This document shows, in pieces, positions 2,396 to 19,113 of a stretch of 64,000 nt of DNA. The stretch is from Hydrogenothermus marinus. GTDB lineage: Bacteria; Aquificota; Aquificia; Aquificales; Hydrogenothermaceae. The stretch is from NCBI RefSeq assembly GCF_003688665.1, contig NZ_REFO01000010.1, forward strand, positions 372,001-436,000. The letters run 5' to 3'. The notes beneath the pieces are model-generated. The model did not search any database, was not told the origin of the DNA, and was given only the letters and a program-made list of their open reading frames with translations. Position numbers and translations under genes: made by a program. The number at the start of each line of letters is the position of its first letter. Positions within the stretch are counted from its first letter, which is position 1.

Positions 2396-4657
2396 TCATA
2401 AGTTAATCTTTAGTAAATAAGCAATCTGTCCTAATGCTAATCCTCCATCATTAGGTGGCACTTTCTTATGAATAAGAACTGGTATTTTTTCTTTTTCAGC
2501 AAGTTGAATAATTTTTTCTGTTAAATATTTATTTTGAAATACTCCACCTGTTAAGCCTAATTTAAGGTCGGAACCTTTATACTTATAGATCTGAATAACA
2601 ATATTAGCTAAGGTATTTATAAATCTACTTACCTTTGTTTTTAAATCAGATTTATCTTTAATCATAGCTTCTATAATAGGTCTCCAATCTATAATATCTT
2701 CATATATATCGACTGGATAATAATCTTTAATTGTCCAATCATAATAGTTCTCCATTATCATCCCAGATTGTCCTTCATAAGATAATTTTTGTCTTATGTC
2801 TAATAAAGATGAAACTGCATCAAAAAGCCTTCCTATAGATGAAGATTTAGGAGAGTTTATATTTTTCCCCCAAGCAGTATAAAGTAGATTTAACTCTTTT
2901 TCTGAAAAGTTTCTTAAAGTTGGGATACAATTAATATTATCGAAATTTTTTCCATACATATCAAAGAGTAAAGATAAAGCTACTCTTCTTGGTTCTTTTA
3001 CGGCTTTTTCTCCTCCAAGAAGTTTAAAATATTTTAAATGAGATACTCTTTGATAATTGTTATAATCAGCAATTAAGAATTCTCCCCCCCAAAGATTGTT
3101 ATCGTCTCCATAGCCTGTACCATCCCAACAAACAGCAAATAATTTTTCATCTTTTAACTGATTTTCTACCATTAAAGAAAGAGCATGTGTATAATGATGC
3201 TGTAATTTGATTAAAGGTATATTATTCTTATTGGAAAAATTTTCAGCCCATTGAGTTGAATAATATCTAGGATGTAAATCTGAAACTATTATTTCAGGTT
3301 TGAAATCATAAAGATTAAAAAAGGAAAATATTACTTCTTCAAAATTTTTTTGAGAATCAAGAGTCTCAAGATCACCTATATGTTGACTTAAAAAAGCTTT
3401 ATCTTCAAAAGCTATACATATTGTGTTTTTCTGATGTCCTCCAACTGCTAAAACTTTTTTTTGTAGTTTAAAAGGTAATTTTATAGGAAGTGGTGCATAT
3501 CCTCTAGAGCGTCTAATAAAAGATATATTTTCGTTTATAATTCTGATAACGCTATCATCTACTCTATTTTTTATACTTCTGTTATGAGTAAGTATATAAT
3601 CAGTAAAAATAGATAGTTTTTTAAATGCCTCTTCATTATCTTTTACAATAGGTTCGTCTGATAAGTTTGCAGAAGTCATTACTAAAGGTTTTTCAAATTC
3701 ATTCAAAAGTAAATAATGGAGAGGTGAGTAAGGTAAAAATACTCCAATTCTATCTAAATATGGTGCTACTTCTTCTCCTAAATCTGTATTAATTTTTTTC
3801 TTTACAATTACTATTGGTTTTTCTGGTGATAATATTATGGCTTCTTCAAGTTTGGTAATATTTGCATATTTTTTTATTTGATTTATATCTTTAAACATTA
3901 TAGCAAAAGGTTTTTCTCCTCTTTTCTTCCTTTGTCTAAGAGTTTGTAAAGAATTATTATTAGTAGCATCACATACAAGATGAAATCCACCAATACCTTT
4001 TATTGCTAAAATTTTCCCTTTTTTTAAAAAGTTCACTGTTTTTCGTAAAGCTTCTTCTTTTTCTGCTATAAATACTTTATCTGCAGTATATAGAGTTATA
4101 TAAGGTCCACAATCTGGACAAGCATTTGGTTGAGCATGAAATCTTCTATCTGTTGGATTTTCATACTCTTTTTTACATTTTGGACACATTTTAAAAGATT
4201 TCATAGTGGTATTTGGTCTATCATAAGGAAGTTTTTCTATAATAGAGAATCTTGGACCACAATTTGTACAATTTATAAAAGGATATCTATATCTTCTATT
4301 ATTTGGATCCATTAGTTCTTTTAAACATTCATCACAAGTTGAAATATCAGGAAGAATAAATACTTCCTTTTTTCCTTTTTCTTCTGATTTTTTTATTTCA
4401 AACTTTGTAAAATTTGTTATAGGGAGTTCTTCAATTTCTTGAGAAAATATATGAGCTAAAGGAGGTTTTTCTTTATATATAGATATTAAAAACTGATTTA
4501 TATTTTCTTCTTTTCCTTCAACCTCTATTATTACACCTTCTGTACTATTTATTACATATCCTTTTAAGCCATATTTTATGGCTAAATTGTAAATAAAAGG
4601 CCTAAATCCTACTCCTTGAACTGCTCCTGTAAAATTAATTTTTAAATGTTTTTTCAT
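2396..4657 (-). CDS. hypF: Carbamoyltransferase HypF (NiFe hydrogenase maturation)
   Basis: HypF turns carbamoyl phosphate and ATP into carbamoyl-adenylate and passes the carbamoyl group to HypE, which makes the cyanide ligands of the NiFe site. All parts are present: an acylphosphatase domain with VQGVGFRP (residues 13-20), two zinc fingers with Cys at 108, 111, 130, 133, 158, 161, 180 and 183, a YrdC-like domain (KRGEKPFAIMF, TSANLSDEPI), and a Kae1-like domain with HHYTHA, CWDGTGYG, GGVFQN and NDGGLALGQ. I chose the ATG at 4657; an in-frame TTG at 4669 would add four residues and overlap cbiO. The gene is the last of the long hydrogenase run and follows cbiO by about two bases, so translational coupling is likely. 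Confidence 0.97.
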   Translation of the reverse strand: MKKHLKINFTGAVQGVGFRPFIYNLAIKYGLKGYVINSTEGVIIEVEGKEENINQFLISIYKEKPPLAHIFSQEIEELPITNFTKFEIKKSEEKGKKEVFILPDISTCDECLKELMDPNNRRYRYPFINCTNCGPRFSIIEKLPYDRPNTTMKSFKMCPKCKKEYENPTDRRFHAQPNACPDCGPYITLYTADKVFIAEKEEALRKTVNFLKKGKILAIKGIGGFHLVCDATNNNSLQTLRQRKKRGEKPFAIMFKDINQIKKYANITKLEEAIILSPEKPIVIVKKKINTDLGEEVAPYLDRIGVFLPYSPLHYLLLNEFEKPLVMTSANLSDEPIVKDNEEAFKKLSIFTDYILTHNRSIKNRVDDSVIRIINENISFIRRSRGYAPLPIKLPFKLQKKVLAVGGHQKNTICIAFEDKAFLSQHIGDLETLDSQKNFEEVIFSFFNLYDFKPEIIVSDLHPRYYSTQWAENFSNKNNIPLIKLQHHYTHALSLMVENQLKDEKLFAVCWDGTGYGDDNNLWGGEFLIADYNNYQRVSHLKYFKLLGGEKAVKEPRRVALSLLFDMYGKNFDNINCIPTLRNFSEKELNLLYTAWGKNINSPKSSSIGRLFDAVSSLLDIRQKLSYEGQSGMIMENYYDWTIKDYYPVDIYEDIIDWRPIIEAMIKDKSDLKTKVSRFINTLANIVIQIYKYKGSDLKLGLTGGVFQNKYLTEKIIQLAEKEKIPVLIHKKVPPNDGGLALGQIAYLLKINL

Positions 4658-4659
4658 TT

Positions 4660-5433
4660 TCAATACCAATCATGCCAGTGAAAATCATTGCGATATTTAT
4701 GTTTATGAACTAAATTCGCTTTTTTTAATATTTCATATTCATTTTTAAGTTCTTTTAAACTACCATCAAATATAAGATTATGCGATGTGTCTAAAACTAA
4801 AGCCCGTGAAGCAAATTCTGGGGCTATAGATAAATTATGTGTGCTTATGATAAGTGTTATATCTAATTCATAAAGTAAATCTATAAGCCATCCTGTAGAA
4901 CCTGGATCTAAGTTGGCTGTTGGCTCATCTAAAAGTAAAACCTCTGGATTTGGAGCTAAAATAGATGCAAGAGCCACTTTCTGTTTTTCTCCTCCACTTA
5001 GTTTTAATGGTGATCTATCTAAGAGATGTTCTATCTGACAAAGTTTAGCAACTTCATATACTTTATCTTTTATATTTTTATAATCTCTTTCCTGAAGTCC
5101 AAAAGCAATTTCATCATATACAGTAGGATTAAAAATCATAGTATCTGGATTTTGAAATAAAATACCGATTTCAGTTCTTAACTGTTTAAGTACATCTTTA
5201 GATGTTTTTCTATTTATTATATTACCTTTGTAGATAAGCTCTCCTTTATGTGGGAAGTATAAAGCCGCCAAAATTCTAAGTAATGTAGTTTTTCCACTAC
5301 CATTAGCTCCAAGTAATACTAATCTTTCTCCTTTTTTTACTGAAAAAGATATATTATTTAAAGCTATTGAATTTTCAAAATAATAAGTTAAGTTATTGCA
5401 TTTTATCAAAAAATCCTCTTGATTTAAGGGCAA
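4660..5433 (-). CDS. cbiO: ECF nickel/cobalt transporter ATPase CbiO
   Basis: The protein is an energy-coupling-factor ATPase with Walker A GANGSGKTT, Q-loop FQNPD, signature LSGGEKQKVALA, Walker B VLLLDEPTANLD and switch His in ISTHNLS. It hydrolyses ATP at the cytoplasmic face to drive uptake of Ni(II) or Co(II) through CbiM and CbiQ. The start is uncertain: a TTG at 5433 lies six bases after AGGAGG, another TTG at 5409 follows AGAGGA, and an upstream ATG at 5451 has less support. All three overlap the end of cbiQ. Its place between hyp genes makes nickel the probable substrate. Confidence 0.94.
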   Translation of the reverse strand: MPLNQEDFLIKCNNLTYYFENSIALNNISFSVKKGERLVLLGANGSGKTTLLRILAALYFPHKGELIYKGNIINRKTSKDVLKQLRTEIGILFQNPDTMIFNPTVYDEIAFGLQERDYKNIKDKVYEVAKLCQIEHLLDRSPLKLSGGEKQKVALASILAPNPEVLLLDEPTANLDPGSTGWLIDLLYELDITLIISTHNLSIAPEFASRALVLDTSHNLIFDGSLKELKNEYEILKKANLVHKHKYRNDFHWHDWY

Positions 5434-5950
5434 GAGAAACCTCCTCTGCATTATGATTAGCTTTCTTAAAAAAATAAATAGTCATCATTCCTATAAATTC
5501 TCTTTTTTTTCTATCTTTTATAGGTTTTATTGTTCTACTTTTTAATGCAAATTGGAAATCTTTAAAAGTTTTTTTAAAGTTGTTTATCTGTAATAATGAA
5601 ACTGTTGTTAAAAAAGATAATGTTTTTGAGAAAGAAACAGCCTTTATAATATTTACTCGTTTTGAAAAAAGCAAACTCATGAATGTAATATCAAAAACTC
5701 TAAGATTGAATAATATAATAAAGTCCAAAGGATTTTCATTTTTTATTAATGAAAATATTATATATGATAAACTAACGAATCCATTAAAAACCCAAAGTAT
5801 AACAAGAGTTTTTATGAAAATTTCCCAAAAATTTTTATAAGCTAATACTCCTAATAAAATAAAAGCTATACTTAAAATATAAATATTTTGAAAATAAACT
5901 AATAAGAAAGCGGAAAAAAAATATATAAAGAATAAAATTTTTTCAATCAT
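5393..5950 (-). CDS. cbiQ: ECF nickel/cobalt transporter membrane protein CbiQ
   Basis: A hydrophobic protein of 185 residues with about four or five membrane helices and a C-terminal cytoplasmic stretch bearing SLALKSRGF, a form of the Ala-Arg-Gly signature by which T-components grip the ATPase. It is shorter than most CbiQ proteins (about 225-260 residues), mainly between the helices. It overlaps cbiO at its 3' end and the PDGLE-protein gene at its 5' end by eight bases, as expected for a coupled transporter operon. Together with CbiM and CbiO it should import nickel for the hydrogenases. Confidence 0.86.
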   Translation of the reverse strand: MIEKILFFIYFFSAFLLVYFQNIYILSIAFILLGVLAYKNFWEIFIKTLVILWVFNGFVSLSYIIFSLIKNENPLDFIILFNLRVFDITFMSLLFSKRVNIIKAVSFSKTLSFLTTVSLLQINNFKKTFKDFQFALKSRTIKPIKDRKKREFIGMMTIYFFKKANHNAEEVSLALKSRGFFDKMQ

Positions 5951-6227
5951 TCTTTTTTATATATCCAATCATATAAAATATTAAAAATATAATTCCTACT
6001 CCTATAATGGCACTTATATAATATCCTAAAATTGGATTTAATCCATTTAGATCATAATCAGGTATTGGTGCAGTGTAACTTATATGCTCTTGTATTCCTT
6101 TTGGAACGAAACCCAATATTTTCTTAAAGTAGCTTTCAGACCATTCACCCCAAGCTGGATAATCCGTTAAAAGGCCAAGGGGAACTAAAAAAATAAGTAT
6201 TAATAAAAATAACCAAATTCTTTTCAT
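5943..6227 (-). CDS. Small membrane subunit of the nickel transporter (PDGLE/CbiN-like)
   Basis: A 94-residue protein with an N-terminal helix (about residues 4-20) and a second helix near the C-terminus (about 68-88) around an extracytoplasmic loop containing PAWGEW and GFVPKGI. This layout matches the small CbiN/NikN-type or PDGLE-domain partner that accompanies CbiM. It overlaps cbiM by four bases and cbiQ by eight. The assignment rests on shape, the VPLGLL...AWGEW segment and position, as these proteins are poorly conserved in sequence. Confidence 0.75.
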   Translation of the reverse strand: MKRIWLFLLILIFLVPLGLLTDYPAWGEWSESYFKKILGFVPKGIQEHISYTAPIPDYDLNGLNPILGYYISAIIGVGIIFLIFYMIGYIKKND

Positions 6228-6892
6228 TGTGTAATCTCCTTTTCATTAAGAAGATATTCCTTTTTAACAATAAATTCATAGGCAATTTGCGTAAAAATAC
6301 CCTCTGCAACACCAAAAACAAGCATATGAGGAATTATCATTGCTGGAATAGAAATTTCTAAACCAAATGGAAAATAGATAGGTTTTCCATCAGAAGTATG
6401 TGCAAGATAAGGTTGTATTCCAAGAATAAATCCAATAAAAAGAGAGGCCATAACTAATGAAAACCAACCTGCTATAAAAGGAGCAAATTTTGAAAGTTTT
6501 GAATTTTTTAATAATTGAAATATCCAATATGAAGAAAATGAAGCTATACAACCCATAGCAAATGTATTTATACCATAAGTTGTAATTCCGCCATCTCCAA
6601 AAACTACAGCTTGAATAAATAAAACAAGACTCATACAAATAAAAGCTATCCAAGGACCAAAAACTATAGACAATAAAGCATCTCCTGTAGCATGACCGCT
6701 TGTTCCTCCAGGAAGAGGAATGTTAAACATCATAACTATAAAACTAAAAGCTGTTAATGATGCAAGTAAAGGTAAAGTTTTTTCATTGAGTATACTTTTT
6801 ATTTTTCTTAAACCTATTATCCAAAGCGGTATATCTATAGCGTATCCTATAGCACAAGTTGCCAATGATAGATAACCATCTGGAATATGCAT
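6224..6892 (-). CDS. cbiM: ECF nickel/cobalt transporter substrate-binding protein CbiM
   Basis: The S-component of the metal importer. The mature N-terminus MHIPDGYLS is the hallmark: the amino group and His2 bind the metal ion in CbiM/NikM proteins. The 222 residues form about seven membrane helices, with SFIVMMFNIPLPGGTSGH in the middle. It starts the transporter block, 16 bases downstream of hypA, and continues into the PDGLE gene by a four-base overlap. Nickel rather than cobalt is inferred from the hydrogenase context. Confidence 0.95.
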   Translation of the reverse strand: MHIPDGYLSLATCAIGYAIDIPLWIIGLRKIKSILNEKTLPLLASLTAFSFIVMMFNIPLPGGTSGHATGDALLSIVFGPWIAFICMSLVLFIQAVVFGDGGITTYGINTFAMGCIASFSSYWIFQLLKNSKLSKFAPFIAGWFSLVMASLFIGFILGIQPYLAHTSDGKPIYFPFGLEISIPAMIIPHMLVFGVAEGIFTQIAYEFIVKKEYLLNEKEITQ

Positions 6893-7252: not shown

Positions 7253-8254
7253 TTAGCAAATCCTTGGTAGTAATTCTCCTGCAGGAGGTTCCATAATTCT
7301 TCTTGTACCATAAGAAGATTTTAAAATAACTTTCCCTTTATAATCTGATATTACTTTTCCTATTATTTGAGAATCCTTCCCAAGAGGACTTTTAAGCATA
7401 ATATCTAATGCTTTTTCTTCTTCTCCTTTAGGAACTACTAAAACTAATTTCCCTTCATTTGCGAGAGTATAAGCTTCTAAACCAAGAAGTTCACATAATC
7501 CTTGTACTTCATCTTTTATAGGTATTTTTTCTTCTTCAATTTCTATCCCAATTTTTGATTGATTAGCCCATTCATTTAGAACAGCAGATAATCCTCCACG
7601 AGTAGGGTCTCTCATTGCCTTTATCTTTACTCCAGAATTTATTAAATCCTTAACTAAAGGCCAAAGAGATGCACAATCTGAAGATATTTCACTTTCCATT
7701 TCTATATCTTCTCTTTGTGCCATAATACAAGCTCCATGATCTCCAATACTACCAGAAACTAAAATAATATCTCCTTCTTCCAAATTGCTCGCTGAAATAC
7801 CATCATATATAATCTCTCCAATTCCTGTTGTATTTATAAAAATTTTATCTACAGAACCTTTAGGAACAACTTTAGTATCTCCAGTAACTATTTTTACCTC
7901 TGTTTTTTTCATCTCTTCAGACATTGATTTAACAATTTTTTCTAAATCTTCAAATGGGAAACCTTCTTCTATTATGAAAGAACAGCTTAAAAATCTTGGC
8001 TTTGCACCCATCATTGCTATATCATTTACTGTCCCAGCTATTGATAATTTTCCTATATCTCCACCTTTAAAGAAAATTGGAGAGATAGTAAAAGAATCTG
8101 TCGTAAAAGCTATTTTGGAATTTGTATTTAAAACTGCTGCATCTTCCATTTTTTCTAAAATTGGATTAGAAAAGTATTTAAAAAATAAATTTTTTATAAG
8201 TTTTTGAGTCTCTTCTCCACCACCTCCATGAGATAAAAGTATACGATTTTCCAT
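7253..8254 (-). CDS. hypE: Carbamoyl dehydratase HypE
   Basis: HypE takes a carbamoyl group from HypF on its C-terminal Cys and dehydrates it with ATP to a thiocyanate, the source of the CN ligands. The protein has the PurM-like fold, GGGGEETQKLI near the N-terminus, the DPTRGGL segment and the essential tail PRIC with Cys as the last residue (333 residues). It follows hypD by six bases and abuts hypA. Confidence 0.97.
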   Translation of the reverse strand: MENRILLSHGGGGEETQKLIKNLFFKYFSNPILEKMEDAAVLNTNSKIAFTTDSFTISPIFFKGGDIGKLSIAGTVNDIAMMGAKPRFLSCSFIIEEGFPFEDLEKIVKSMSEEMKKTEVKIVTGDTKVVPKGSVDKIFINTTGIGEIIYDGISASNLEEGDIILVSGSIGDHGACIMAQREDIEMESEISSDCASLWPLVKDLINSGVKIKAMRDPTRGGLSAVLNEWANQSKIGIEIEEEKIPIKDEVQGLCELLGLEAYTLANEGKLVLVVPKGEEEKALDIMLKSPLGKDSQIIGKVISDYKGKVILKSSYGTRRIMEPPAGELLPRIC

Positions 8255-8260
8255 TGTTTT

Positions 8261-9382
8261 TTATACCTCCTTTACCAACTTAACTTTTCCATATTTATAA
8301 TAGGCAGCACAAGCTCCTTCTGATGATACCATACAGGATCCAAGAGGATTTTGAGGTGTGCAAGCTGTTCCAAAAACTTTACAATCATAAGGTTTAGCAG
8401 TACCTTTTAAAATATCACCACATATACATAATTTATGATCATCTATAGCTTCATTTGGTAATATATCTAAAAATACTTTTTCTGCATCTATTTCAGCATA
8501 ATCATCTTTTAGTTTTAAAGCAGAATAAGGAATATCTCCTATTCCTCTCCATCTAAAGTTCTCACGAGGTTGCATATATTTATTTATTAGTTGTTGTGCT
8601 TTTATATTTCCTTCCCATGTTACTGCTCTTGAATATTGGATTTCAACTTCCCTTCTATTCTCTTTAAACTGTCTAATTATCCATAAAATACTTTCTAAAA
8701 TATCTAGAGGTTCAAAACCTGCTACAACAACAGGAGTCTTATATAAATCTACAATTTCTTGGTATATTTTAGCTCCAGCTATAACAGAAACATGAGATGG
8801 CCCTATAAATGCATCTATTATTGCTTCTTTACTATCCATTATTGCTTTTATTGGAGGTGGTACTAAGACATGATTTATATGAAAATATATATTCTTTATA
8901 TTTTCTTTTAATACTTTATCTATTAAAGCAGCTGTCATCGGTGTAGTTGTTTCAAAACCTATTGCAAAGTAAATTATATTTTTAGTAGGATTATCTTTTG
9001 CTAATTTCAATGCATCAAAAGGAGCGTATACAACTTTTATATTTTTTCCTTTTGCTCTTTCTTTTTGAAGAGAACTTTTAGAACCAGGAACCCTAATCAT
9101 ATCTCCAAGGGTAGCTAATATATTATTTTCATCTTGAGCTAAAGTTATAGCATGATCTATTCTTTCCTTAGGCATAATACAAACAGGACAGCCAGGACCA
9201 TGAATAAAATCTATTTCATCTGGAAGCAGCTGTTTTAAACCATATTTCATAATAGTGTGGGTATGTCCGCCACAAACTTCCATTATATTTATAGGTCTAT
9301 CTACTTCATTTTGTATAAGTTTAGCTAAAGCTTTTATCCTTTTTGAATCTCTAAAATCTTTTATATAATCAATAGGACTCAT
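8261..9382 (-). CDS. hypD: Hydrogenase maturation protein HypD
   Basis: HypD is the iron-sulfur scaffold on which HypC and HypD assemble the Fe(CN)2CO unit. The motifs VCGGHTHT (Cys37), GPGCPVC (Cys65 and Cys68) and the C-terminal set of cluster cysteines in CICGDILKG, DCKVFGTAC and LGSC are all present. The length of 373 residues is normal. It lies four bases after hypC and six before hypE. Confidence 0.97.
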   Translation of the reverse strand: MSPIDYIKDFRDSKRIKALAKLIQNEVDRPINIMEVCGGHTHTIMKYGLKQLLPDEIDFIHGPGCPVCIMPKERIDHAITLAQDENNILATLGDMIRVPGSKSSLQKERAKGKNIKVVYAPFDALKLAKDNPTKNIIYFAIGFETTTPMTAALIDKVLKENIKNIYFHINHVLVPPPIKAIMDSKEAIIDAFIGPSHVSVIAGAKIYQEIVDLYKTPVVVAGFEPLDILESILWIIRQFKENRREVEIQYSRAVTWEGNIKAQQLINKYMQPRENFRWRGIGDIPYSALKLKDDYAEIDAEKVFLDILPNEAIDDHKLCICGDILKGTAKPYDCKVFGTACTPQNPLGSCMVSSEGACAAYYKYGKVKLVKEV

Positions 9383-9386
9383 TTTT

Positions 9387-9647
9387 TTAATCTACCTCCT
9401 TATGCAACTTACCTTCCTCTTCATCCAATTTTTCTAATATTTCTTCATATACTTTTATACTTTCAATGGCATCTTCTTCACTTAATTTTGTCATAGCATA
9501 CCCAACATGAATAAGAACATAATCACCAATATTAACAGGTTCTGGCATTAAATCTAAAGATACTTTTCTTTTTACTCCCATTGTATCAACAATTGCATAA
9601 TTATCTGGTAATATTTCAATAATTTTAGATGGTATTGAAAGACACAT
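9387..9647 (-). CDS. hypC: Hydrogenase maturation chaperone HypC
   Basis: HypC pairs with HypD to hold the iron centre and delivers it to the large subunit. The family start MCLSIPSKI with the essential Cys2 fixes the start codon at 9647, which has AAGGAGGT just upstream; a longer frame upstream of this Met is not part of the protein. The protein has 86 residues. The gene sits between the HypF-like protein and hypD. Confidence 0.96.
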   Translation of the reverse strand: MCLSIPSKIIEILPDNYAIVDTMGVKRKVSLDLMPEPVNIGDYVLIHVGYAMTKLSEEDAIESIKVYEEILEKLDEEEGKLHKEVD

Positions 9648-9657
9648 TTTTACCTCC

Positions 9658-11805
9658 TTAAATAAAAATTCCACCAAAAGCTATATTCTGGTTATCTATA
9701 GGAAGTTTCCTATTTATTAATATTGGATATTTACCTTTAGCATGTTTTATGATTCTACCTGTTAAAATCGGATTACTAAAGAAATCTCCTGCTAAAGCTA
9801 CATTATTAATTTTTAATTTCTTTGAAATTGTATTTATCTGTTCTATCATCCAATCAGCTAAACCCTCAAATATTGAAAAAGCAAGCATTTTATTATCAAC
9901 ATCTGCAATTTTGTATGAAAGAATACTTTGCAATGTTTTAATCCAGTTTAAATAAAATACATTATTTTCTTCATATAAGAAGTAATCTATCATTAATCCT
10001 CTATTATCTTTAAAATCTAAAGCTTCATTTTGTAAATATATATATGGTTCTTCAAAGTATGAAATATCATCATAAGGATGTATATCTAAAAGAATTGAAG
10101 CTATATTTAATACTGCTGTAATACTATAAGCAGTTTTTCCATTTTCATCTAAATTTATATTTGCAAATTTGTTGTATATGTCTGGATACTTTTTCTCAAA
10201 ATTAGAAATTAATCTTCTTCCTTCTTCTGAAGAACTTTTAATTTCTTCTAAAGCCCATTTTACAGTTTTTCTAAAATCTTTAAAAATTTTGATTGGTTTA
10301 ATCCAAATAGCAGGTTTAATAGATTTTATTTTTGTTTTTACGGCAACTAAATCTTGATTTACCTTTGAAGAAAAGTAAAAGCCGATTACTCCTTCTTCAG
10401 TTTTATTATATTCTCCAAGAATAGATAAAATAGCTCCTTCATAAGCTTTATAATCTTTTTTTTCTTTATATGGAACTTTAATATCTTCATATTCTCCATT
10501 TAGTATATTTACACTATTTAATTTATCTACAAAACTTGGAAGCTGGAAAAGTATTTTTTCTTTTTTATCTATGAAATATTCTCCATTTCCTAAATCTAAT
10601 ACTGCATAATCATTTGCTATAGCAAGATTTCCTGTTTGTTTTGACTTTATTATATTAGGTAATATACCCTTTTCTCCTTCTTTAATTATTATCTTTCCTT
10701 GAGCAACAAAAACTTCTGTATCTTTTTGTTTGTTTATAATTGGTAAATCAGCATTTAGTTCAAATTCTGTAATTTCTTCTTCTAATTCATTTTTTAATTC
10801 TTCTATAAATACGTAATTTATACCTCTTTCTTTTAAATGTTGTGCTAAAAGAATTAAGAGAGGTTCATCAGGAAGTTTAACTTTTATAAAATCAAGATTA
10901 TTAGAAACAAGTTCTTTTTCTTTAAATTCTTTTGCTGTTAAGTAAACAATGGGTTTTTCTTGGGAAGCTAAAGCTTTGATTTCTGTATCAGATATAAAAG
11001 CAATTTCATTTAGTATTGAAGGATTCGTAATTAAAATAGTAATTGGTTTTCTACCAATGTTTAAAAAAGTTCTTACTTTTGATATATTCTTTTTGTTTAT
11101 TAATCCTATTATTTTTAATCCTTGTCCTGTATAGACTTTAATTAAATTTCCTTTTTCTATTATTCCAGTAGCTGTATTTATAGCTCCTACAGTCTTTTCA
11201 TTATCAAATCCATATCTTTCATGTTCTCCTTTTTTTAGATAAATAGGTGTTAAACATTTATGACAAGAAATAAGTTCGTAATTGAATCTTAAACTTTCTT
11301 TATTTTCTAATTCTCTTTTACAATCTTCACACGGAACAAAAAATTTGAATACGGTTTTTTCTCTTTTAAATGGATACTCATAAAGATATGAATAATGATT
11401 TCCGCAATAATTGCAGGATATAAATGGATAATAAAATCTTCTATTCTCAGGATTAAAAAGTTCTTCTAAACAAGATGGACATGTTGATAAATTTTGAGGT
11501 ATAAGATTTGGCTCTTTTAATAATTTAAATCCTTCCTTTATTTCTATATCTAACTTCTCAATAGAAACTGTATTTGCAGTTCCCATAAATATTGAATATG
11601 GAAGTTTTTCCCCAAGTTCTTTTACAAATTTTTCTACTTTTTCGAAACTATCTTTTATGTAAATTTTTACTTTATCATTTTCTCTTTTTAGATATCCAGT
11701 AATTTTATTTTTATCAGCTATATATTTAATTAAATAAAAAAGGTTCTCATTTCCTTTATAATACTCAAATTCTATTTTTATTTTAACTGTGTCTATAGTC
11801 TTCAT
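9658..11805 (-). CDS. Degenerate HypF-like protein with intact zinc fingers
   Basis: A 715-residue protein collinear with HypF but lacking its active sites. The zinc-finger block is fully kept: Cys at 109, 112, 131, 134, 159, 162, 181 and 184, with the same spacing as in the true HypF of this window, including LEELFNPENRRFYYPFIS. The N-terminal region resembles an acylphosphatase fold but has no VQGVGFR. The YrdC-like part lacks the usual nucleotide-binding residues, the Kae1-like part has no HHxxHA or DGTGYG, and the end reads AGDFFSN and DNQNIAFGG where HypF has GGVFQN and NDGGLALGQ. The ATG at 11805 has GAGG seven bases upstream and overlaps the protease gene by 23 bases. It is probably a non-catalytic partner in maturation; function unknown. 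Confidence 0.9.
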   Translation of the reverse strand: MKTIDTVKIKIEFEYYKGNENLFYLIKYIADKNKITGYLKRENDKVKIYIKDSFEKVEKFVKELGEKLPYSIFMGTANTVSIEKLDIEIKEGFKLLKEPNLIPQNLSTCPSCLEELFNPENRRFYYPFISCNYCGNHYSYLYEYPFKREKTVFKFFVPCEDCKRELENKESLRFNYELISCHKCLTPIYLKKGEHERYGFDNEKTVGAINTATGIIEKGNLIKVYTGQGLKIIGLINKKNISKVRTFLNIGRKPITILITNPSILNEIAFISDTEIKALASQEKPIVYLTAKEFKEKELVSNNLDFIKVKLPDEPLLILLAQHLKERGINYVFIEELKNELEEEITEFELNADLPIINKQKDTEVFVAQGKIIIKEGEKGILPNIIKSKQTGNLAIANDYAVLDLGNGEYFIDKKEKILFQLPSFVDKLNSVNILNGEYEDIKVPYKEKKDYKAYEGAILSILGEYNKTEEGVIGFYFSSKVNQDLVAVKTKIKSIKPAIWIKPIKIFKDFRKTVKWALEEIKSSSEEGRRLISNFEKKYPDIYNKFANINLDENGKTAYSITAVLNIASILLDIHPYDDISYFEEPYIYLQNEALDFKDNRGLMIDYFLYEENNVFYLNWIKTLQSILSYKIADVDNKMLAFSIFEGLADWMIEQINTISKKLKINNVALAGDFFSNPILTGRIIKHAKGKYPILINRKLPIDNQNIAFGGIFI

Positions 11806-12364
11806 TTGTTATCCTCTTATTTATTAGTTCTCCATTATAAGAACCAAAGTTCTTTATGACTACCTCTTTTAAAGTTTTATTGTTTACTTTTTTATAAGTA
11901 ATTCCTAATTTTTCTAATTCCTTTAGTACTTGAGCAACAGCTGTTTTAAAAGGAATATCTTCAAGTGTTTCTGTAAGACCTATTTCAGAAGAACATATAT
12001 TTTCAGGAATTATTCCAATAATAATAACCTCTGCTCTATTACCTTTTAAAGCAGTAAGTTCAAGCATTTGAACAACTTCTACTTCGTGGGCCGTTTGATG
12101 ATAAGAACCAATACCTACAAGCTCTTCATCTGTAAGTCTAAATACACTTCCTGGTTTATCCTTTATTGATATAGTATCAATAAGAATAAGATGTTCATAA
12201 TCTTCTAAATATTCCATTAATCTAAAACCAAGAGTACCTGCATCTATAAGGTCTATATTAGGGTTAAACTGATAATTTTCTTCTAAGTACTTAACAACAA
12301 ATACACCTATACCTTCATCTTTGAAAAGTATATTCCCAATACCAACTATTCCTATTTTCTTCAT
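11783..12364 (-). CDS. hyaD: Hydrogenase maturation protease (HyaD/HybD family)
   Basis: The endopeptidase removes the C-terminal peptide of the NiFe large subunit after nickel insertion. Family motifs are GIVGIGNILFKDEGIG at the N-terminus with the nickel-binding Glu, IDAGTLGFRLM, LILIDTISIKDKPG and the histidine of TAHEVEV. The ATG at 12364 has GAGG six bases upstream; a TTG at 12376 in frame is less likely. Its likely target is the large subunit encoded just upstream, which has a 23-residue tail; the second large subunit in the window has none. It follows a hairpin terminator. Confidence 0.93.
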   Translation of the reverse strand: MKKIGIVGIGNILFKDEGIGVFVVKYLEENYQFNPNIDLIDAGTLGFRLMEYLEDYEHLILIDTISIKDKPGSVFRLTDEELVGIGSYHQTAHEVEVVQMLELTALKGNRAEVIIIGIIPENICSSEIGLTETLEDIPFKTAVAQVLKELEKLGITYKKVNNKTLKEVVIKNFGSYNGELINKRITNEDYRHS

Positions 12365-12376
12365 TTTAATCCTCAA

Positions 12377-12413: not shown

Positions 12414-13124
12414 TTAAACCTCTTCCTTTTTAAGTTTTCTAAATTTATATCCACCAAATACTATTGCTATATCTCCTTCTTTCCAGAAAATAGTTCTCCA
12501 GACTTGATAGTATATGTGAAAAGCTACCCAAGAAAGAATTATCCACATAGTAAAGTGATGCCACCATCTTACTCCACCTTGCCCTCCAAGTAGCCAACCT
12601 ACCCAATCTGTAGCTAAATGTAGTAATGCAGGCCACCAACTACCAATTGCAGAAAGTCCGCTTTCAAGTCCTTGAACATATAAATAAAATCCTGTAAATA
12701 ACATCCATAAAAGTAAAAGATGTAGAATAGTAAAATATACAGCATTAAAGCTGTCTAAATGAGAACTATCAAAATTTTTTCTTCTATTTAATGTTATAAG
12801 ATTAAGAAAAACTTCCCAAAATTCTTTTAAATTTTGTTTAGTAGGAATTACTTTTTTATAAACTTTTTCAAATCTGCTTCTAAAATAAAGATAAAAGATA
12901 ACAATAGAAACAACATCAAGAAGTAAAGCAGCAAAAAAATGTATCAACCTATTATAAGCCATTACATACTTAAGAGCAGCTGGTGTAGATATGAGAGTTT
13001 GATAATAAGGATGTGCTATATAAAGTCCAGTAATTACAGCTGCTATTATACAAAATACATTTGTCCAATGTATGATTCTCATAGTTGCTGTCATTCTTTT
13101 AACTCTTTCTAGCTTTTCATACAT
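12414..13124 (-). CDS. hyaC: NiFe hydrogenase cytochrome b subunit (HyaC type)
   Basis: The membrane anchor that takes electrons from the exported hydrogenase to quinone. The 236-residue protein has about four or five membrane helices with haem-binding histidines in RIIHWTN, RLIHFFAALL and WWHHFTMW, followed by a helix with HIYYQVWRT. Its start overlaps the large-subunit gene by eight bases. With the Tat-type small subunit it makes up a membrane-bound uptake hydrogenase on the periplasmic side. Confidence 0.94.
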   Translation of the reverse strand: MYEKLERVKRMTATMRIIHWTNVFCIIAAVITGLYIAHPYYQTLISTPAALKYVMAYNRLIHFFAALLLDVVSIVIFYLYFRSRFEKVYKKVIPTKQNLKEFWEVFLNLITLNRRKNFDSSHLDSFNAVYFTILHLLLLWMLFTGFYLYVQGLESGLSAIGSWWPALLHLATDWVGWLLGGQGGVRWWHHFTMWIILSWVAFHIYYQVWRTIFWKEGDIAIVFGGYKFRKLKKEEV

Positions 13125-14859
13125 TGCAAAAACCTCCTACAGGGTCTACTTTATAAACCCCAAGCTCTTTTCCTTTTGTATCAATTATATGAACTGCACA
13201 TGCTATACATGGGTCAAAAGAGTGAACGGTTCTAAGTATTTCAACAGGTTGATTTTTATCTGCAACAACTGTATTACTAACTATTGCAGATTCATATGCA
13301 CCCATTCTTCCTTTATAATCTCTGGGACCTGCATTCCATGTTGAAGGAACAACCGCTTGATAGTTAGCTACTTTTCCATCAACAATTCTTACCCAATGTC
13401 CTAAGGCTCCTCTTGGCGCTTCTTCTAATCCATAACCTTTTAACTCTTTTCCTTTTGTAAGTTCTTCATAATCAAATTCTGTCCATGTTGATAAATCTCC
13501 CTGTGCACAGTTTGAAGCCAGCTCATCAGACCATTCCATCATCATATCTGCCATAAGTTGAGTTTCTATAGCTCTTGCAGCAGTCCTTCCAACAGTTGAG
13601 AATAATGCTTTTGCAGGTAGTCCTGCAGCTTTTAATGCTTTATTTACATAACTTTTAATTCTTTCATCTCCTGAAGCATATCCAACAATCATTCTTGCAA
13701 GAGGTCCTACTTCTACTCTTGTATCATCGTATATAGGAGCTTTTATCCAAGAATATTTTTCTTCAACTTTTAATAAACCATCTTTATCAAATCCTGTATA
13801 ATCTGGATTTGTTTGACCTTCAAATGGATGTAAAGGTTTGTCTGTTCCTTCATATTTATACCAAGAATGAGTAACATCTTCAGCTACTTTCTCTTGATCA
13901 AAAGGTATTACTCTTGATAAATCTTTATTTAATACGACTCCTGATGGGAATAAAGTTTTTCCTTTATACATAGGATTATCATCAAGTCTGAAACCACCAT
14001 AAGCAAGATAATTTCCAAGACCACTACCAACACCGTTTAATGCATCATCTTTATATGCATCGGCAGCCATTAAAATATCAGGAAGATATGCTCTATTAAC
14101 AAAATCTCTTGATTTTTCAAGAAGTTCTTTGAATAGAGCATGTCTTGAAGGATCTTTTAAATCTTTAACACAAGTTACCCCACCAACAACTAATGATTGA
14201 GGATGAGGATTTTTACCTCCCCAAACAGCCATCATTTGTGCCATCCATCTTTGAACTTCTAATGCATCAAGATAATGAGTTAATGCAACAAGATTTTGCT
14301 CAGGAGTAAATTTATAAGATTTATTTCCCCAATAAGCATTAGCAAAAGGTCCAAGTCTTCCACCTTTAGCAAATCTTTTTAATCTTTCTTGAACAGCTTT
14401 ATATTTATTTGGAGAATTTTCCCAAGGATTTTCTGAATATCTCTCTGCAACTTTAGCAGCTTTATAAGGATCAGCTTTTAATGCTGATATTACATCTACC
14501 CAATCTAATGCGTGAAGATGATAAAAATGAACTAAATGATCATGTACATAAAGGGATCCTTGAATTAAATTTCTAACAAGTCTTGCGTTTTTAGGTATTG
14601 TAATTCCTAGGGCATGTTCTACTGCTTCAATACTTCTTTGGTAATGTGTTCCTGTACAAACTCCACATATTCTCATTGCCATAAGACCACAATCTCTTGC
14701 ATCTCTTCCTTTTAAAATAATTTCTATACCTCTCCACATTGTAGCTGAGCTATATGCATCTACAATTCTATTATTTTCATCTATTATTACCTCAATTCTC
14801 AAATGTCCTTCAATTCTTGTAATAGGGTCTATAACTATTCTTTCTTTAGTTTTTGACAT
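13117..14859 (-). CDS. hyaB: NiFe hydrogenase large subunit, membrane-bound group 1 type
   Basis: The catalytic subunit that oxidises H2 at the NiFe(CN)2CO site. The L1 motif RICGVCTGTH (Cys65, Cys68) and the L2 motif DPCIACAVH (Cys551, Cys554) hold the metals. A 23-residue tail after His557 is the expected target of the maturation protease. The length of 580 residues is normal for group 1. It has no signal peptide and should cross the membrane in complex with the small subunit through the Tat pathway. It overlaps the cytochrome b gene by eight bases and follows the small-subunit gene by 15. Confidence 0.97.
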   Translation of the reverse strand: MSKTKERIVIDPITRIEGHLRIEVIIDENNRIVDAYSSATMWRGIEIILKGRDARDCGLMAMRICGVCTGTHYQRSIEAVEHALGITIPKNARLVRNLIQGSLYVHDHLVHFYHLHALDWVDVISALKADPYKAAKVAERYSENPWENSPNKYKAVQERLKRFAKGGRLGPFANAYWGNKSYKFTPEQNLVALTHYLDALEVQRWMAQMMAVWGGKNPHPQSLVVGGVTCVKDLKDPSRHALFKELLEKSRDFVNRAYLPDILMAADAYKDDALNGVGSGLGNYLAYGGFRLDDNPMYKGKTLFPSGVVLNKDLSRVIPFDQEKVAEDVTHSWYKYEGTDKPLHPFEGQTNPDYTGFDKDGLLKVEEKYSWIKAPIYDDTRVEVGPLARMIVGYASGDERIKSYVNKALKAAGLPAKALFSTVGRTAARAIETQLMADMMMEWSDELASNCAQGDLSTWTEFDYEELTKGKELKGYGLEEAPRGALGHWVRIVDGKVANYQAVVPSTWNAGPRDYKGRMGAYESAIVSNTVVADKNQPVEILRTVHSFDPCIACAVHIIDTKGKELGVYKVDPVGGFCNV

Positions 14860-14874
14860 GATTTATTTACCTCC

Positions 14875-16110
14875 TTATTTTGTTTCTTCTTTTTTACCTG
14901 CTACTGCACTAGCAACTGCATGTATACCTATACCTATAGCAGTAGCAGTTAAAATTCCAAGACCAACTTTATCAACAGTAGCTTCTACACCCCAAAGTCC
15001 AGGAGGATGTATATCACTATTTGCAAGAGGTCTTTCTGTTGCATATTTATCCCAAAAATCCGGTTCCGCACAACCAATACATCCTCTTCCTACACCAATA
15101 GGCCAATTTGTACCATCGTTATATCTAATTATTGAACAGTTATTGAATGTAAATGGACCTTTACATCCCATTTTATATAAACAGAAATTATTTTTAGCAC
15201 CTTCATCTCCCCATTCTTCAACATATTCTCCAGCATCAAAGTGGGCTCTTCTCTCACAGTTATCATGAATTCTATAACCAAAAGCAAATTTTGGCCTTAA
15301 AAGTGAATCAAGTTCAGGTAATTCTCCTGTTAAAATATAGTGCATTATCACGCCTACTGAGTTTGCAGGATTATGAGGACATGCAGGAATGTTAACAATT
15401 GGTTTTCCTTTTACAACATCCATAACTCCAACTGCACCAGTTGGATTTGGATATGCAGCAGGAATACCTCCAAAAGTAGCACAGGAACCGACTGCTATAA
15501 CTGCAGCTGCATCTTTTGCAAGTCTTTGGACTCTTTCAACCCCTGTTTCAGGATGCCTTCCTATAGTAAATGCTTCTGGCATACCAACAGGTATAGAACC
15601 TTCAACAAACAATAAATATTTACCTTTAAAATCCCTAACTGCATCTTCTAAGCATTTTTCAGCTTGATCTCCTGCTGCAGCCATTAATGTTTCATGATAT
15701 TCAACAGATAAATAATCAAGAATAAGCTCATCTACTGTAGGTGCAGATGATCTTAATAAAGCTTCAGAGTTACCATCACAATCTTGAATATTAATCCATA
15801 TAATAGGTATTCTATTCATAACTTCTGCTGCTTCTGCAACAAGAGGTTCAAAAGTAGGAGGTAACATTAAAAGAGCAGTAGTTGCTGACACCCATTTTAA
15901 AAAATCTCTTCTTGATAATTCCCACATATCAAGAGCTTTTTCAAATTTGATATCATGTTCCCTTACAGGTTTCATAGCTTTAAGTTCATCAAGCCTTTTT
16001 CTCATTTTTTCATAAAGGGACTTATAGTATTTTTCTCCTTTGTTTGTATCAACATAATTGGTAGGCTTGGTGAAGATGTTTTTCATATGTTCTCTACTAA
16101 AGAACTGCAT
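14875..16110 (-). CDS. hyaA: NiFe hydrogenase small subunit with Tat signal
   Basis: The electron-transfer subunit, exported by Tat and held by a C-terminal helix (about residues 385-402). Cluster ligands: Cys111, Cys210 and Cys244 for the proximal cluster; His282, Cys285, Cys310 and Cys316 for the distal one; Cys325, Cys344 and Cys347 for the medial one. The fourth proximal ligand, Cys in most group 1 enzymes, is Asn114 (CDGN). The twin-arginine motif SRRDFLK begins at residue 66, unusually far from the N-terminus. The start at 16110 is well supported by AGGAGG upstream. It is the first gene of the long operon, with a promoter and two operator-like palindromes in front. Confidence 0.95.
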   Translation of the reverse strand: MQFFSREHMKNIFTKPTNYVDTNKGEKYYKSLYEKMRKRLDELKAMKPVREHDIKFEKALDMWELSRRDFLKWVSATTALLMLPPTFEPLVAEAAEVMNRIPIIWINIQDCDGNSEALLRSSAPTVDELILDYLSVEYHETLMAAAGDQAEKCLEDAVRDFKGKYLLFVEGSIPVGMPEAFTIGRHPETGVERVQRLAKDAAAVIAVGSCATFGGIPAAYPNPTGAVGVMDVVKGKPIVNIPACPHNPANSVGVIMHYILTGELPELDSLLRPKFAFGYRIHDNCERRAHFDAGEYVEEWGDEGAKNNFCLYKMGCKGPFTFNNCSIIRYNDGTNWPIGVGRGCIGCAEPDFWDKYATERPLANSDIHPPGLWGVEATVDKVGLGILTATAIGIGIHAVASAVAGKKEETK

Positions 16111-16211: not shown

Positions 16212-17582
16212 TTAATGAGTAGTGCAAACAGAACAAACATCAAAGCTTCTTAAAACCATTTCTGCAATTAAAGAATTATCTAATCCTATAATTGCTTTTT
16301 CTGCAGGAGATAAATACTTCTCACAACGAGGTCCTAAATTCCAAGTTGAAGGTGTTATTATGTCATATTTTTTTATTTTGCCTTCTTTTACTTCTAATTT
16401 ATGGATTAAGGAACCTCTAGCAGCTTCACATAAACCATAAGCTATTCCTTCCAATTCTTTTATATTTTTTTTAGGTTTTATATAAGAAGGTTCTTTTATA
16501 TCTATTTCTTGAAGCCATTTTTTCATAGCAAGTAAAAGCTTAATTATTTCATCAATTCTTGCCCATATTCTTGGTATATATGTATCTTTTAAATCTGCTA
16601 ATAAATTTAGAAATAATTTATCTTTATTGTTTATTCTCCTTGCAAGAGGACCTGTTTCATAGGGAAACCCTTCATATCTAACTGCTTTAGCCCACGAATA
16701 TTTTTTTCCATTAAAATCTATCCCTTTTTTTGTTAAAAAGGAATATGTATCTATTTCTTCTAGTTTTTTTATATTAAAGTTGTATTTTTTTCTTTTTGTT
16801 GCTCCTTGAGAAAAAATAGGATATATATTAGATACTGTTAAAAATCTATTATAAGCTTTTCCTATTTTATGAAGATTATGTTTAAAGCATAACTTTAGAA
16901 ATTTACTTAAATCTTTATCTGATTTTTCAATGAATTCTTTATAATCTTCTATTGATAAATAATTTTCATATTTCATTCCGATAATATTTTCTTCATAATA
17001 TTTAATCATACTATCTACTATTGAAATAGATTCTGTTATATCAAAAGTTGTTGGATCACAAACTACACCTCCAGGAATAGAATATGAAGTATGAGGCCAT
17101 TGCCCTCCAAATATTGCTATAACTTTGACTATTTTAGAACTAAAATCTATTGCCTTTTGCCATTGTTTTCCTTTAATGGGTATGTATTCAGATAAATCTT
17201 CTGTATAAGTTTCTAACTTTAAAAGATCAGGAAAAACAAATAAATAAAACCACCTTAAATGATTTTGTACTATTTCTGCTGAAAGAGTAATTAATCTAAT
17301 TAAATTAGCTTTTTTAGAAATTTCAATATTATATCCTGCATTTTTATATAAATTTTCTAAAGCGTTAACTGTAGCCATCAAATGAGCATGTCCACAAATA
17401 CCACATACTCTTGGAGTTATTATAAGAGAATCTAAAATCGGTTTTCCTTCAAGTATAAATTCAAATCCTCTAAAATTAGGAGCTATGATAAAAGCATCTT
17501 TTATGATTCCTTTTTCCCATATTAATTTTAATTCTATTTCGCCTTCTACTCTGCTTAATATTGTCTTTTGAATTTTTACCAT
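16212..17582 (-). CDS. hupL: NiFe hydrogenase large subunit, cytosolic group-2-like, no C-terminal extension
   Basis: The second large subunit, 456 residues. L1 is RVCGICGHAH (Cys60, Cys63) and L2 is FDVCSVCTTH (Cys450, Cys453), and His456 is the last residue, so nothing is left for a maturation protease to cut. That is known from H2-sensing group 2b proteins and contrasts with the first hydrogenase here. The sequence is short and divergent, with long Lys-rich stretches. It follows its small subunit by one base and ends the hypB-tetR-hupS-hupL operon. It resembles the group 2 enzymes of Aquificota; whether it works in catalysis or in sensing cannot be told from sequence. Confidence 0.93.
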   Translation of the reverse strand: MVKIQKTILSRVEGEIELKLIWEKGIIKDAFIIAPNFRGFEFILEGKPILDSLIITPRVCGICGHAHLMATVNALENLYKNAGYNIEISKKANLIRLITLSAEIVQNHLRWFYLFVFPDLLKLETYTEDLSEYIPIKGKQWQKAIDFSSKIVKVIAIFGGQWPHTSYSIPGGVVCDPTTFDITESISIVDSMIKYYEENIIGMKYENYLSIEDYKEFIEKSDKDLSKFLKLCFKHNLHKIGKAYNRFLTVSNIYPIFSQGATKRKKYNFNIKKLEEIDTYSFLTKKGIDFNGKKYSWAKAVRYEGFPYETGPLARRINNKDKLFLNLLADLKDTYIPRIWARIDEIIKLLLAMKKWLQEIDIKEPSYIKPKKNIKELEGIAYGLCEAARGSLIHKLEVKEGKIKKYDIITPSTWNLGPRCEKYLSPAEKAIIGLDNSLIAEMVLRSFDVCSVCTTH

Positions 17583-17583
17583 T

Positions 17584-18507
17584 TTAATCAGTTTCTTCTA
17601 ATTTCTTTTTTACTCTTTCGTTTCTCAAACTTTTTGCAACCCCTGAAATTGTTATGTAAGCCCTTTTACTTACACCTAAGGGAACTTCTTCTGGGATACC
17701 TATATTCTTTTTTGTTTCAAAATAATTTTCCCTTAAAGGGAAGTTAAACTCTGTACATCCTAAACAAGGCATACCTGCTCGTGTTTTAGAAGAAGTTCTA
17801 TTCCATAGTATTTTATTGCAAGGTGCATGTGTTAAAGGTCCTTTACAGCCTAAGTTATAAAATAAACATCCTTCTTTATGTCCAAATTCTTCTGATTCTT
17901 CCTTCCATTCGAAATATTCATTTCTTATACAACCATCATGGGGTAAATACATATATATCTCTTTTGGTCTATTAAAAGCATCTAAAATAAGAGGTTTTTC
18001 ATAGTATAAAGCTAAAATTGTTTGCATAAACCATGCAGGATGGATAGGGCAACCGCTAATATTAATTACTGGGTATCCTGATTTTGTTTTAAAATTTGGA
18101 GGTAAAAGACCCTTTTTTTCTGTGAATATATATTGAAGACCAACTACATTAGTATTTTCTTTATATAAAGCTGGAATATTTCCAAAACTGGCGCAATTCC
18201 CTACTGCAATTATAAATTCAGCTTTATCTTTTAGTTGATCTATTATTTCTGCTATAGAAAAATCTCCTACTCTACAGAAACTTTTATTTTTTGTAATAGA
18301 ACCTTCAACAACTAAAAAGGTTAATGAAATTTTATTTTGAGTTATATCTTTTATTATCTTAATTAAATCTTCATCAGAAGAGATTGCTGGATGAAATAAA
18401 AGTTTTATTTTTGAAAAAATATCATAAAAAGAAGGATTTTCTGCATTTAATAAAGAATGTGTATTTCCATTACATGTTAATCCTTGAATCCAGAGTAAAG
18501 TTTTCAT
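17584..18507 (-). CDS. hupS: NiFe hydrogenase small subunit, cytosolic group-2-like
   Basis: A 307-residue small subunit that begins directly with MKTLLWIQGLTC and has no Tat signal or C-terminal anchor, so it should stay in the cytoplasm. The first cluster motif is CNGN (Cys12, Asn15), as in cyanobacterial HupS, where Asn stands for the usual Cys. Further cluster ligands are in VGNCASFG, ISGCPIHP, HDGC, EGCLFYNLGC, APC and MPCLGC. It follows the TetR gene by nine bases and precedes the large subunit by one. The physiological electron partner is not encoded nearby. Confidence 0.93.
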   Translation of the reverse strand: MKTLLWIQGLTCNGNTHSLLNAENPSFYDIFSKIKLLFHPAISSDEDLIKIIKDITQNKISLTFLVVEGSITKNKSFCRVGDFSIAEIIDQLKDKAEFIIAVGNCASFGNIPALYKENTNVVGLQYIFTEKKGLLPPNFKTKSGYPVINISGCPIHPAWFMQTILALYYEKPLILDAFNRPKEIYMYLPHDGCIRNEYFEWKEESEEFGHKEGCLFYNLGCKGPLTHAPCNKILWNRTSSKTRAGMPCLGCTEFNFPLRENYFETKKNIGIPEEVPLGVSKRAYITISGVAKSLRNERVKKKLEETD

Positions 18508-18516
18508 GATTTTTTA

Positions 18517-19113
18517 TTAAGCTTTTAACGCTCTCCATATATTTTCAGCAAGTTCTTCTGAATATTTTAATGGATTATCCATTAAGATATTTTCACCTTT
18601 TAAGAAAACCAACCCACCAAGAGGTCCCATTATTGTTACAAATGCAGTAAATAAATCTTGATTCCTTAAATCTCCTTTTTTAACTCCTTCTTCTAAAAAT
18701 AACATTATTTCTGTTACTACTTCTTGGACACATAAAAATCCTTCACAGCCTTTTGAAAAAACTTCTCTATTAGACAAGAAAACTCTCAAAAAGTAATCTA
18801 TTAATTCTGGGTTTTCTTCAGCAATTTCTATAAATCTTTTGACTAAAAGAAAAATTTTCTCTTTAGTTGGTAAATCCATTTCATTAATATTTCTTATTTC
18901 TTCTCCTAATAATTTAGAAGAATATTGCATTATATATTTTGCAAGTTCTTCTTTACTTTTAAAATAGTTATATAAATTTCCTACACTCATTCCTAATGCT
19001 TCAGCTATATCTGGAATAGTTGTATTGTAATATCCATTTTTAGCAAATAATTTACATGCAGTTTTTACTATCTCCTCTTTTTTTTGCTCCTTTGATATTT
19101 TAGAGACTTTCAC
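18517..19113 (-). CDS. TetR/AcrR-family transcriptional regulator of the hydrogenase genes
   Basis: A 198-residue protein with an N-terminal TetR helix-turn-helix (about residues 33-52: TIPDIAEALGMSVGNLYNYF) and an all-helical C-terminal ligand and dimer domain. It overlaps hypB by 14 bases and lies upstream of the second hydrogenase, in an operon preceded by a palindrome of the kind TetR proteins bind. The same palindrome occurs before the other hydrogenase operon. I infer that it represses both sets and its own operon. The effector is unknown; the binding-site form recalls acyl-CoA-responsive FadR-type members, but that is only a hint. Confidence 0.92.
   Translation of the reverse strand: MKVSKISKEQKKEEIVKTACKLFAKNGYYNTTIPDIAEALGMSVGNLYNYFKSKEELAKYIMQYSSKLLGEEIRNINEMDLPTKEKIFLLVKRFIEIAEENPELIDYFLRVFLSNREVFSKGCEGFLCVQEVVTEIMLFLEEGVKKGDLRNQDLFTAFVTIMGPLGGLVFLKGENILMDNPLKYSEELAENIWRALKA

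Follow-up and report, generated by a model that had tools for sequence, protein, structure and literature searches.

A catalytically dead HypF paralogue in a Hydrogenothermus marinus hydrogenase operon as a very probable zinc-finger-bearing member of the HydE family

Hydrogen use by Helicobacter pylori matters for infection. The hydABCDE operon of Campylobacterota ends with hydE (HP0635 in H. pylori, with equivalents in other Helicobacter species), the product of which is described as of unknown function. Passages in three papers report that hydE mutants of H. pylori lose hydrogenase activity (PMC7695850, PMC3120642, PMC5557546), and passages in papers citing Benoit 2004 state that this requirement is not rescued by nickel. 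Localisation of the complex at the membrane has been ascribed to HydD together with HydE (PMC4992972). Some two decades after this reported need in H. pylori was recognised, what HydE does is still without an explanation. The substrate of HypF is HypE, on which it carbamoylates the C-terminal Cys; the two proteins form a stable complex, and HypF is not retained in the assembly of HypC, HypD and HypE (PMC12134894). The radical-SAM protein HydE of [FeFe] hydrogenases shares only its name with the HydE of [NiFe] hydrogenases and is unrelated to it.

The gene described here, pHypF, lies in a stretch of 64,000 nucleotides of the Hydrogenothermus marinus genome (the window). An earlier note had singled it out as a full-length HypF paralogue without active sites inside the hyp operon. 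The relevant features of the window are the following.

2396..4669, minus strand: true HypF with the complete motif set (TIGR00143; match to PDB 3vth, E 8e-196)
7253..8254, minus strand: HypE with the C-terminus PRIC, the tail that is the HypF substrate (Pfam AIRS/AIRS_C)
8261..9382, minus strand: HypD (PF01924)
9387..9647, minus strand: HypC (PF01455)
9658..11805, minus strand: pHypF, catalytically dead HypF paralogue and very probable zinc-finger-bearing HydE-family protein, 715 aa
9661..10650, minus strand: Kae1-like domain of pHypF, ~aa 386-715; HHxxHA and DGTGYG absent (PF22521, 39.9 bits)
10651..11220, minus strand: YrdC-like domain of pHypF, ~aa 196-385; KxR and TSxN nucleotide residues absent
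11254..11481, minus strand: two HypF-type zinc fingers of pHypF, C109 to C184 (PF07503 in two stretches; eight Cys aligned)
11479..11805, minus strand: acylphosphatase-like domain of pHypF, ~aa 1-109; Arg of VQGVGFR and catalytic Asn absent (PF00708 below cut-off)
11783..12376, minus strand: HupD/HydD hydrogenase endopeptidase (TIGR00072 / TIGR00140; conserved order)
12414..13124, minus strand: hydrogenase b-type cytochrome subunit, HydC-like (TIGR02125, 107.7 bits, under the cut-off of 121.5)
13117..14859, minus strand: large subunit of the hydrogenase accompanied by pHypF (domain search; co-occurrence)
14875..16110, minus strand: small subunit; SRRDFLK as twin-arginine motif (by eye) and C-D-G-N as proximal-cluster motif (TIGR00391, 448.6 bits)

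These genes belong to an operon-like run of HypB, TetR, the small and large subunits of hydrogenase 2, the small and large subunits of hydrogenase 1, cytochrome b, HupD, pHypF, HypC, HypD, HypE, HypA, CbiM with other transporter genes, and HypF. From 16110 to 9658 the order matches hydA-B-C-D (small subunit, large subunit, cytochrome b, protease) followed by E. The pHypF gene starts with ATG, contains no internal stops and overlaps at its start with the HupD gene by 23 bp. Comparison of orthologue C-termini shows that the large subunit (13117..14859) carries a C-terminal peptide for removal by HupD. Because HypC requires Cys at residue 2 (PMC12134894), translation of its gene probably begins with the ATG at 9647 (MCLSIPSK), 10 bp past the pHypF stop codon, and not with the TTG at 9677. 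The true HypF lies 7 kb from pHypF when measured start to start, as the earlier note had it, and 5.0 kb when measured end to start. Within the hyp operon, positions 4660-6892 hold a CbiM/PDGLE/CbiO metal transporter set, probably for nickel uptake for the hydrogenase, with a 185-aa protein without a Pfam match in the CbiQ position. The TetR-type regulator (18517-19113) lies between HypB and the second hydrogenase, and the same spot is kept from Hydrogenothermaceae to Campylobacterota.

The Pfam domains of pHypF follow the HypF order, with matches to zf-HYPF (E=4.8e-19) and HypF_C_2 (5.2e-10) and sub-cut-off matches to Sua5_yciO_yrdC (9e-5) and Acylphosphatase (8e-4); the radical-SAM domain (CxxxCxxC) of [FeFe] HydE was not found by Pfam. 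Against the HypF model TIGR00143, pHypF scores 196 bits, under the cut-off of 466, whereas the true HypF reaches 887 bits. The eight zinc Cys of pHypF (C109, C112, C131, C134, C159, C162, C181 and C184) and those of the window HypF (C112, C115, C134, C137, C162, C165, C184 and C187) have the identical spacing 2-18-2-24-2-18-2 that had been read from the sequence at the outset.

The catalytic motifs were compared column by column between pHypF and 62 HypFs, with HypF numbering. In the acylphosphatase domain R23 is replaced by F and N41 by R; R23 is retained in 5% of the pHypF rows and 0% of the HydE rows of this alignment. The YrdC domain shows K224 replaced by Y, R250 by I and T332/S333/N335 by E/E/K, and contains the new motifs LASQEKP and GEKGILP. 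In the Kae1 domain H491/H492/H495 have become A/Y/A, these histidines being retained in 0-3% of family rows, and D516, G517, G519 and G521 are all substituted. At the 86 positions conserved in at least 95% of the 62 HypFs, retention by pHypF amounts to 83% in the zinc region, 31% in the acylphosphatase, 41% in the YrdC and 14% in the Kae1 domain, and the key catalytic residues are not among the conserved positions retained. VQGVGFR, the YrdC nucleotide residues, HHxxHA and the GTG loop are thus gone, as the earlier note claimed. Across the family, K224 persists in about half of the members, and K224 with G228 of the YrdC pocket in many; residual ligand binding may occur in members where K224 persists. 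Family-wide conservation is concentrated in the second subdomain of the Kae1-like domain.

An AlphaFold model of pHypF built with 17 orthologues (pLDDT 80, pTM 0.79) has HypF as its top Foldseek match and aligns at full length to the solved HypF with TM 0.70-0.78 and E ~1e-40 (3vth/3vti), and therefore the motif losses in pHypF are no artefact of sequence alignment. Collinearity with HypF, and the true absence of the motifs on structural comparison, are both borne out. pHypF shares domain order, four-domain fold and finger spacing with HypF (TIGR00143; 3vth, 3vti, 4g9i, 3tsp), which differs from it in having the catalytic residues intact.

A genome scan found pHypF relatives in Sulfurimonas, with the gene order small subunit, large subunit, cytochrome b, pHypF, HypF, HupD, a layout close to the hydABCDE operon. 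In Helicobacter species the gene directly after HydD is collinear with pHypF; HydE was identified here by this place in Helicobacter species other than H. pylori. An HMM of 17 pHypFs matched Helicobacter HydE collinearly with E values of 1e-32 to 1e-39, and the copy of one Sulfurimonas genome (G144) with 9e-64. Alignment of pHypF with HydE by hhalign gave E=5e-45 over 538 columns, covering the whole length; the values were 1e-81 for pHypF with Sulfurimonas pHypF and 4e-54 for pHypF with HypF, and HydE with true HypF gave 2e-12 over 245 N-terminal columns only. With the HydE HMM, pHypF proteins scored 113-174 bits, and no true HypF scored more than 31 bits. Since the similarity of HydE to HypF is weak and pHypF is similar to both, the zinc-finger proteins bridge HydE to HypF. 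The Helicobacter HydEs, at 528-575 aa and ~20% identity to the window protein, have no zinc fingers and gave nothing but sub-threshold matches against Pfam and NCBIfam, whereas pHypF has both fingers and is recognisably HypF-like. A PDB search by Foldseek with an AlphaFold model of HydE (27 sequences; pLDDT 91, pTM 0.87) returned nine matches with E<0.001, all of them HypF; a structure search of a viral fold library returned no match with E<0.001.

The tree of both copies proposed in the earlier note (64 proteins, 40 of them family members, unrooted) separates HypF from pHypF plus HydE with support of 100/100; HydE is supported at 100/99, and pHypF alone weakly, at 61/52. A single origin of the family from HypF assumes that the catalytic form is ancestral, which is likely because the distribution of HypF is very wide. 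By these sequence comparisons and models, the window protein is very probably a member of the HydE family, descended from HypF and lying outside the sampled true HypFs. In the HydE family every catalytic site is lost and the HypF fold is kept. HydE and pHypF are further alike in their operon place after HydD and in hydrogenase layout. The window thus encodes a known, unexplained factor in a form that bears zinc fingers. The earlier note knew of no described function for such a protein; this did not hold, the family including Helicobacter HydE, which passages in PMC7695850 and PMC3120642 report as needed for hydrogenase activity. A statement of the link between HydE and HypF was not found in the literature searched, a body of text that mostly excludes subscription journals, where an earlier mention is possible.

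Of the 40 family members in the tree, 16 have two zinc fingers, 6 have one and 18 have none, a pattern that takes four or more changes of state. In a second genome of the window's own genus, G002, the protein of locus L033 has its second finger shortened to 2-10-2. The fingers erode from two to one to none across the family and are therefore an ancestral rather than a selected feature. Zinc fingers as the conserved function were ruled out, one or both having been lost repeatedly while the operon position stays. The characterisation of the paralogue by the zinc fingers that it keeps is thus right for the window protein but does not capture the essence of the family. Disrupted fingers, which the earlier note had coupled with scattered and decaying homologues, were seen, but scattering and decay were not. 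The residues invariant in 27 of 27 aligned HydEs are L217, E221, P223, D458, S482, S500 and G525 (Helicobacter numbering), four of which fall in the C-terminal Kae1-like subdomain.

Profile searches combined with genomic context, also suggested at the outset, place the family in Hydrogenothermaceae and Campylobacterota, in hydrogenase operons. The Hydrogenothermaceae orthologues are full length, with 33-62% identity, and, G007 apart, every locus with usable context shows the order small subunit, large subunit, cytochrome b, HupD, pHypF. Among the 41 Hydrogenothermaceae genomes sampled, pHypF is present in 21 of the 23 with the same large subunit (Lsu1 type, at least 70% identity) and in none of the 18 others; the assemblies of the two Lsu1-type genomes that lack it are 78% and 86% complete. 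Three of the 18 have a large subunit of 49-51% identity, and many of them have a true HypF. The dN/dS values of pHypF, 0.11-0.35 for close Hydrogenothermaceae pairs and 0.06 for a Sulfurimonas pair (compared with 0.09-0.14 for HypF and 0.04-0.12 for HypD), indicate that it is under purifying selection, somewhat relaxed. Synteny, co-occurrence and dN/dS thus agree with the proposal that a dead, full-length copy has been kept by selection and is dedicated to hydrogenase.

pHypF tracks the exported, group 1b-like large/small/cytochrome-b enzyme (13117-16110), and every partner hydrogenase examined has this small/large/cytochrome-b make-up. For comparison, A. aeolicus is assigned to group 1d, and the enzyme of N. 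profundicola, from Campylobacterota, to group 1b (PMC6265342). The suggestion of a factor for one of the two hydrogenases holds in that there is one specific client, but not for the second enzyme (16212-18507): this possibility was ruled out, the genomes G009, G049 and G058 carrying a hydrogenase of this type without pHypF. The 6-Cys (CTCC) hydrogenases in loci of a neighbouring family (f2) are likewise without pHypF. The large subunit of the second hydrogenase ends in DVCSVCTTH with no C-terminal extension, and should therefore not depend on a maturation protease; the small subunit of this enzyme reads CNGN.

Within Campylobacterota, 298 genomes were scanned, 278 with a hydrogenase large subunit of the relevant kind and 20 without. 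The HydE profile finds a family member in 267 of the 278. Of the 11 others, six are picked up by a second profile, one weakly (G362), giving 273 of 278, counts that are inflated by shared descent. The five genomes without a member have clearly divergent large subunits. Among the 20 large-subunit-negative genomes one has a member (G352), adjoining cytochrome b and protease genes; the weak match in another genome (G319) appears to be HypF only. The family gene is kept in G007, G421 and G432 although it is unlinked to hydrogenase genes there.

The small subunit of hydrogenase 1 in the window (14875-16110) has C-D-G-N where most show C-T-G-C, Cys being replaced by Asn at the proximal Fe-S cluster, whereas the Helicobacter HydE operons have CTGC. 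CxGN occurs in all pHypF-clade operons with a readable motif and CTGC in HydE-clade operons, and the Sulfurimonas genome G144 has two different operons with one family member apiece, the pHypF type with a CAGN small subunit and the HydE type with CTGC. A tie between zinc-finger state and CxGN was perfect in the first set and was dropped when finger-less pHypF-clade members also proved to have CxGN; the association follows clade, not zinc-finger state.

A dedicated role of the pHypF/HydE family, distinct from that of HypF, is quite probable. HypF ancestry, gene order and client specificity lead us to infer that the protein assists maturation of the large subunit as an adaptor without catalytic activity, and we hold with roughly even confidence that the HydE-family protein is such a hydrogenase-specific adaptor, docking to the shared Hyp machinery and/or the apo large subunit. 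Surfaces inherited from HypF would contact HypE or HypC-HypD, the apo large subunit, or both; such docking would let the Fe(CN)2CO unit be delivered and HydD/HupD cut, and the adaptor would stand between HypC/D/E, which are shared, and the protease specific to its client. The ancestral carbamoyl tunnel would be dispensable, as would the zinc fingers in many lineages, and the C-terminal Kae1-like subdomain would bear the new conserved surface. The exact step assigned to the adaptor is tentative. The phenotype comes from the finger-less and distant Helicobacter HydE, and the function of the window protein could differ; membrane localisation by HydD/HydE (PMC4992972) fits a later step than the adaptor.

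The HypF-derived pseudoenzymes that Campylobacterota and Hydrogenothermaceae have alongside their exported, cytochrome-b-linked [NiFe] hydrogenases stand about an even chance of being a previously unrecognised class of adaptors, of which HydE would be one member, with fingers and catalysis lost. The zinc-finger proteins of thermophiles serve as the bridge identifying HydE as a dead HypF, the HydE sequence itself having diverged beyond what the domain libraries searched here could recognise. An unexplained accessory protein is thereby turned into testable questions on its binding to HypE, HypC-HypD, HydD and HydB and on the maturation step. The family would also be a clear case of an enzyme duplicate retained in two phyla as a non-catalytic partner only, and heterologous expression of these hydrogenases may need the pHypF/HydE factor to be supplied.

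That the protein is instead a dedicated chaperone, helping either the small subunit or the assembled enzyme in its Tat export and attachment to the membrane and using the HypF fold as a binding scaffold only, is unlikely but accommodates several observations. HybE, HyaE and HyaF/HoxQ are possible analogues, each a dedicated operon-encoded factor for one exported hydrogenase, although they have no sequence relation to pHypF. HybE and HupH_C (HyaF/HoxQ type) are absent from the seven family-holding genomes searched, a gap that such a chaperone could fill but that is negative evidence; the search for HyaE returned thioredoxin cross-matches, in controls too. The partner enzymes, all of the small/large/cytochrome-b kind and with a Tat motif on the window small subunit, and the membrane-localising role given to HydD and HydE (PMC4992972) agree with export or attachment. 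The match of the clades to the small-subunit motif would also suit a small-subunit client; it is clade-bound, independent of zinc-finger state, and may be simple co-inheritance. HypF ancestry and the gene order, after the large-subunit protease and before HypC or HypF, point instead to the large-subunit pathway.

Rather improbable is a regulatory or structural partner of the true HypF, forming mixed oligomers with it or competing for HypE and so tuning carbamoyl transfer. The HypE-HypF alpha2-beta2 complex (PMC12134894) and the adjoining pHypF and HypF genes in the g6, g8 and g10 Hydrogenothermaceae and in most zinc-finger-type Campylobacterota would fit, but neither the window nor Persephonella-like genomes have the two genes side by side, pHypF is more strictly linked to the protease and structural genes than to HypF, and HypF serves the second hydrogenase in a paralogue-free genome (G009). 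Neofunctionalisation into an enzyme with a different active site, which might for instance handle another small ligand such as CO, is very doubtful. The polar residues E221, D458, S482 and S500 among those invariant in HydE, the survival of the K224 and G228 pocket positions in many members, and a CO source in anaerobic maturation that is still open in the literature (PMC12134894) speak for it; yet the conserved residues are far apart in sequence and form no known catalytic motif, the carbamoyl-phosphate- and ATP-binding groups of HypF are lost, and the CO ligand is made without the HydE family in most hydrogenase-bearing bacteria.

A decaying, functionless duplicate, suggested by the lost active sites and by broken copies in two genomes (G303 and the metagenome-assembled G111), is hardly credible and was rejected on the dN/dS of 0.06-0.35, full length in two phyla and near-perfect co-occurrence with the hydrogenase, to which the loss of activity reported for hydE mutants in passages of the literature can be added. 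In the incomplete G111 (L077, L142), the genes for pHypF and for the two subunits of hydrogenase 1 are each spread over more than one frame, which could reflect sequencing error or real decay. The campylobacterotal G303 has two pHypF-HypF gene pairs (C1:251093-253718 and 1326324-1328955), with one of the two pHypF copies broken into several frames. Two unusually long HydE members, of 748 and 696 aa (L224:4562-6808 and L225:5401-7491), have no hydrogenase gene nearby; the 748-aa protein, without a Pfam match, is flanked by fructose-bisphosphatase and ruvC genes.
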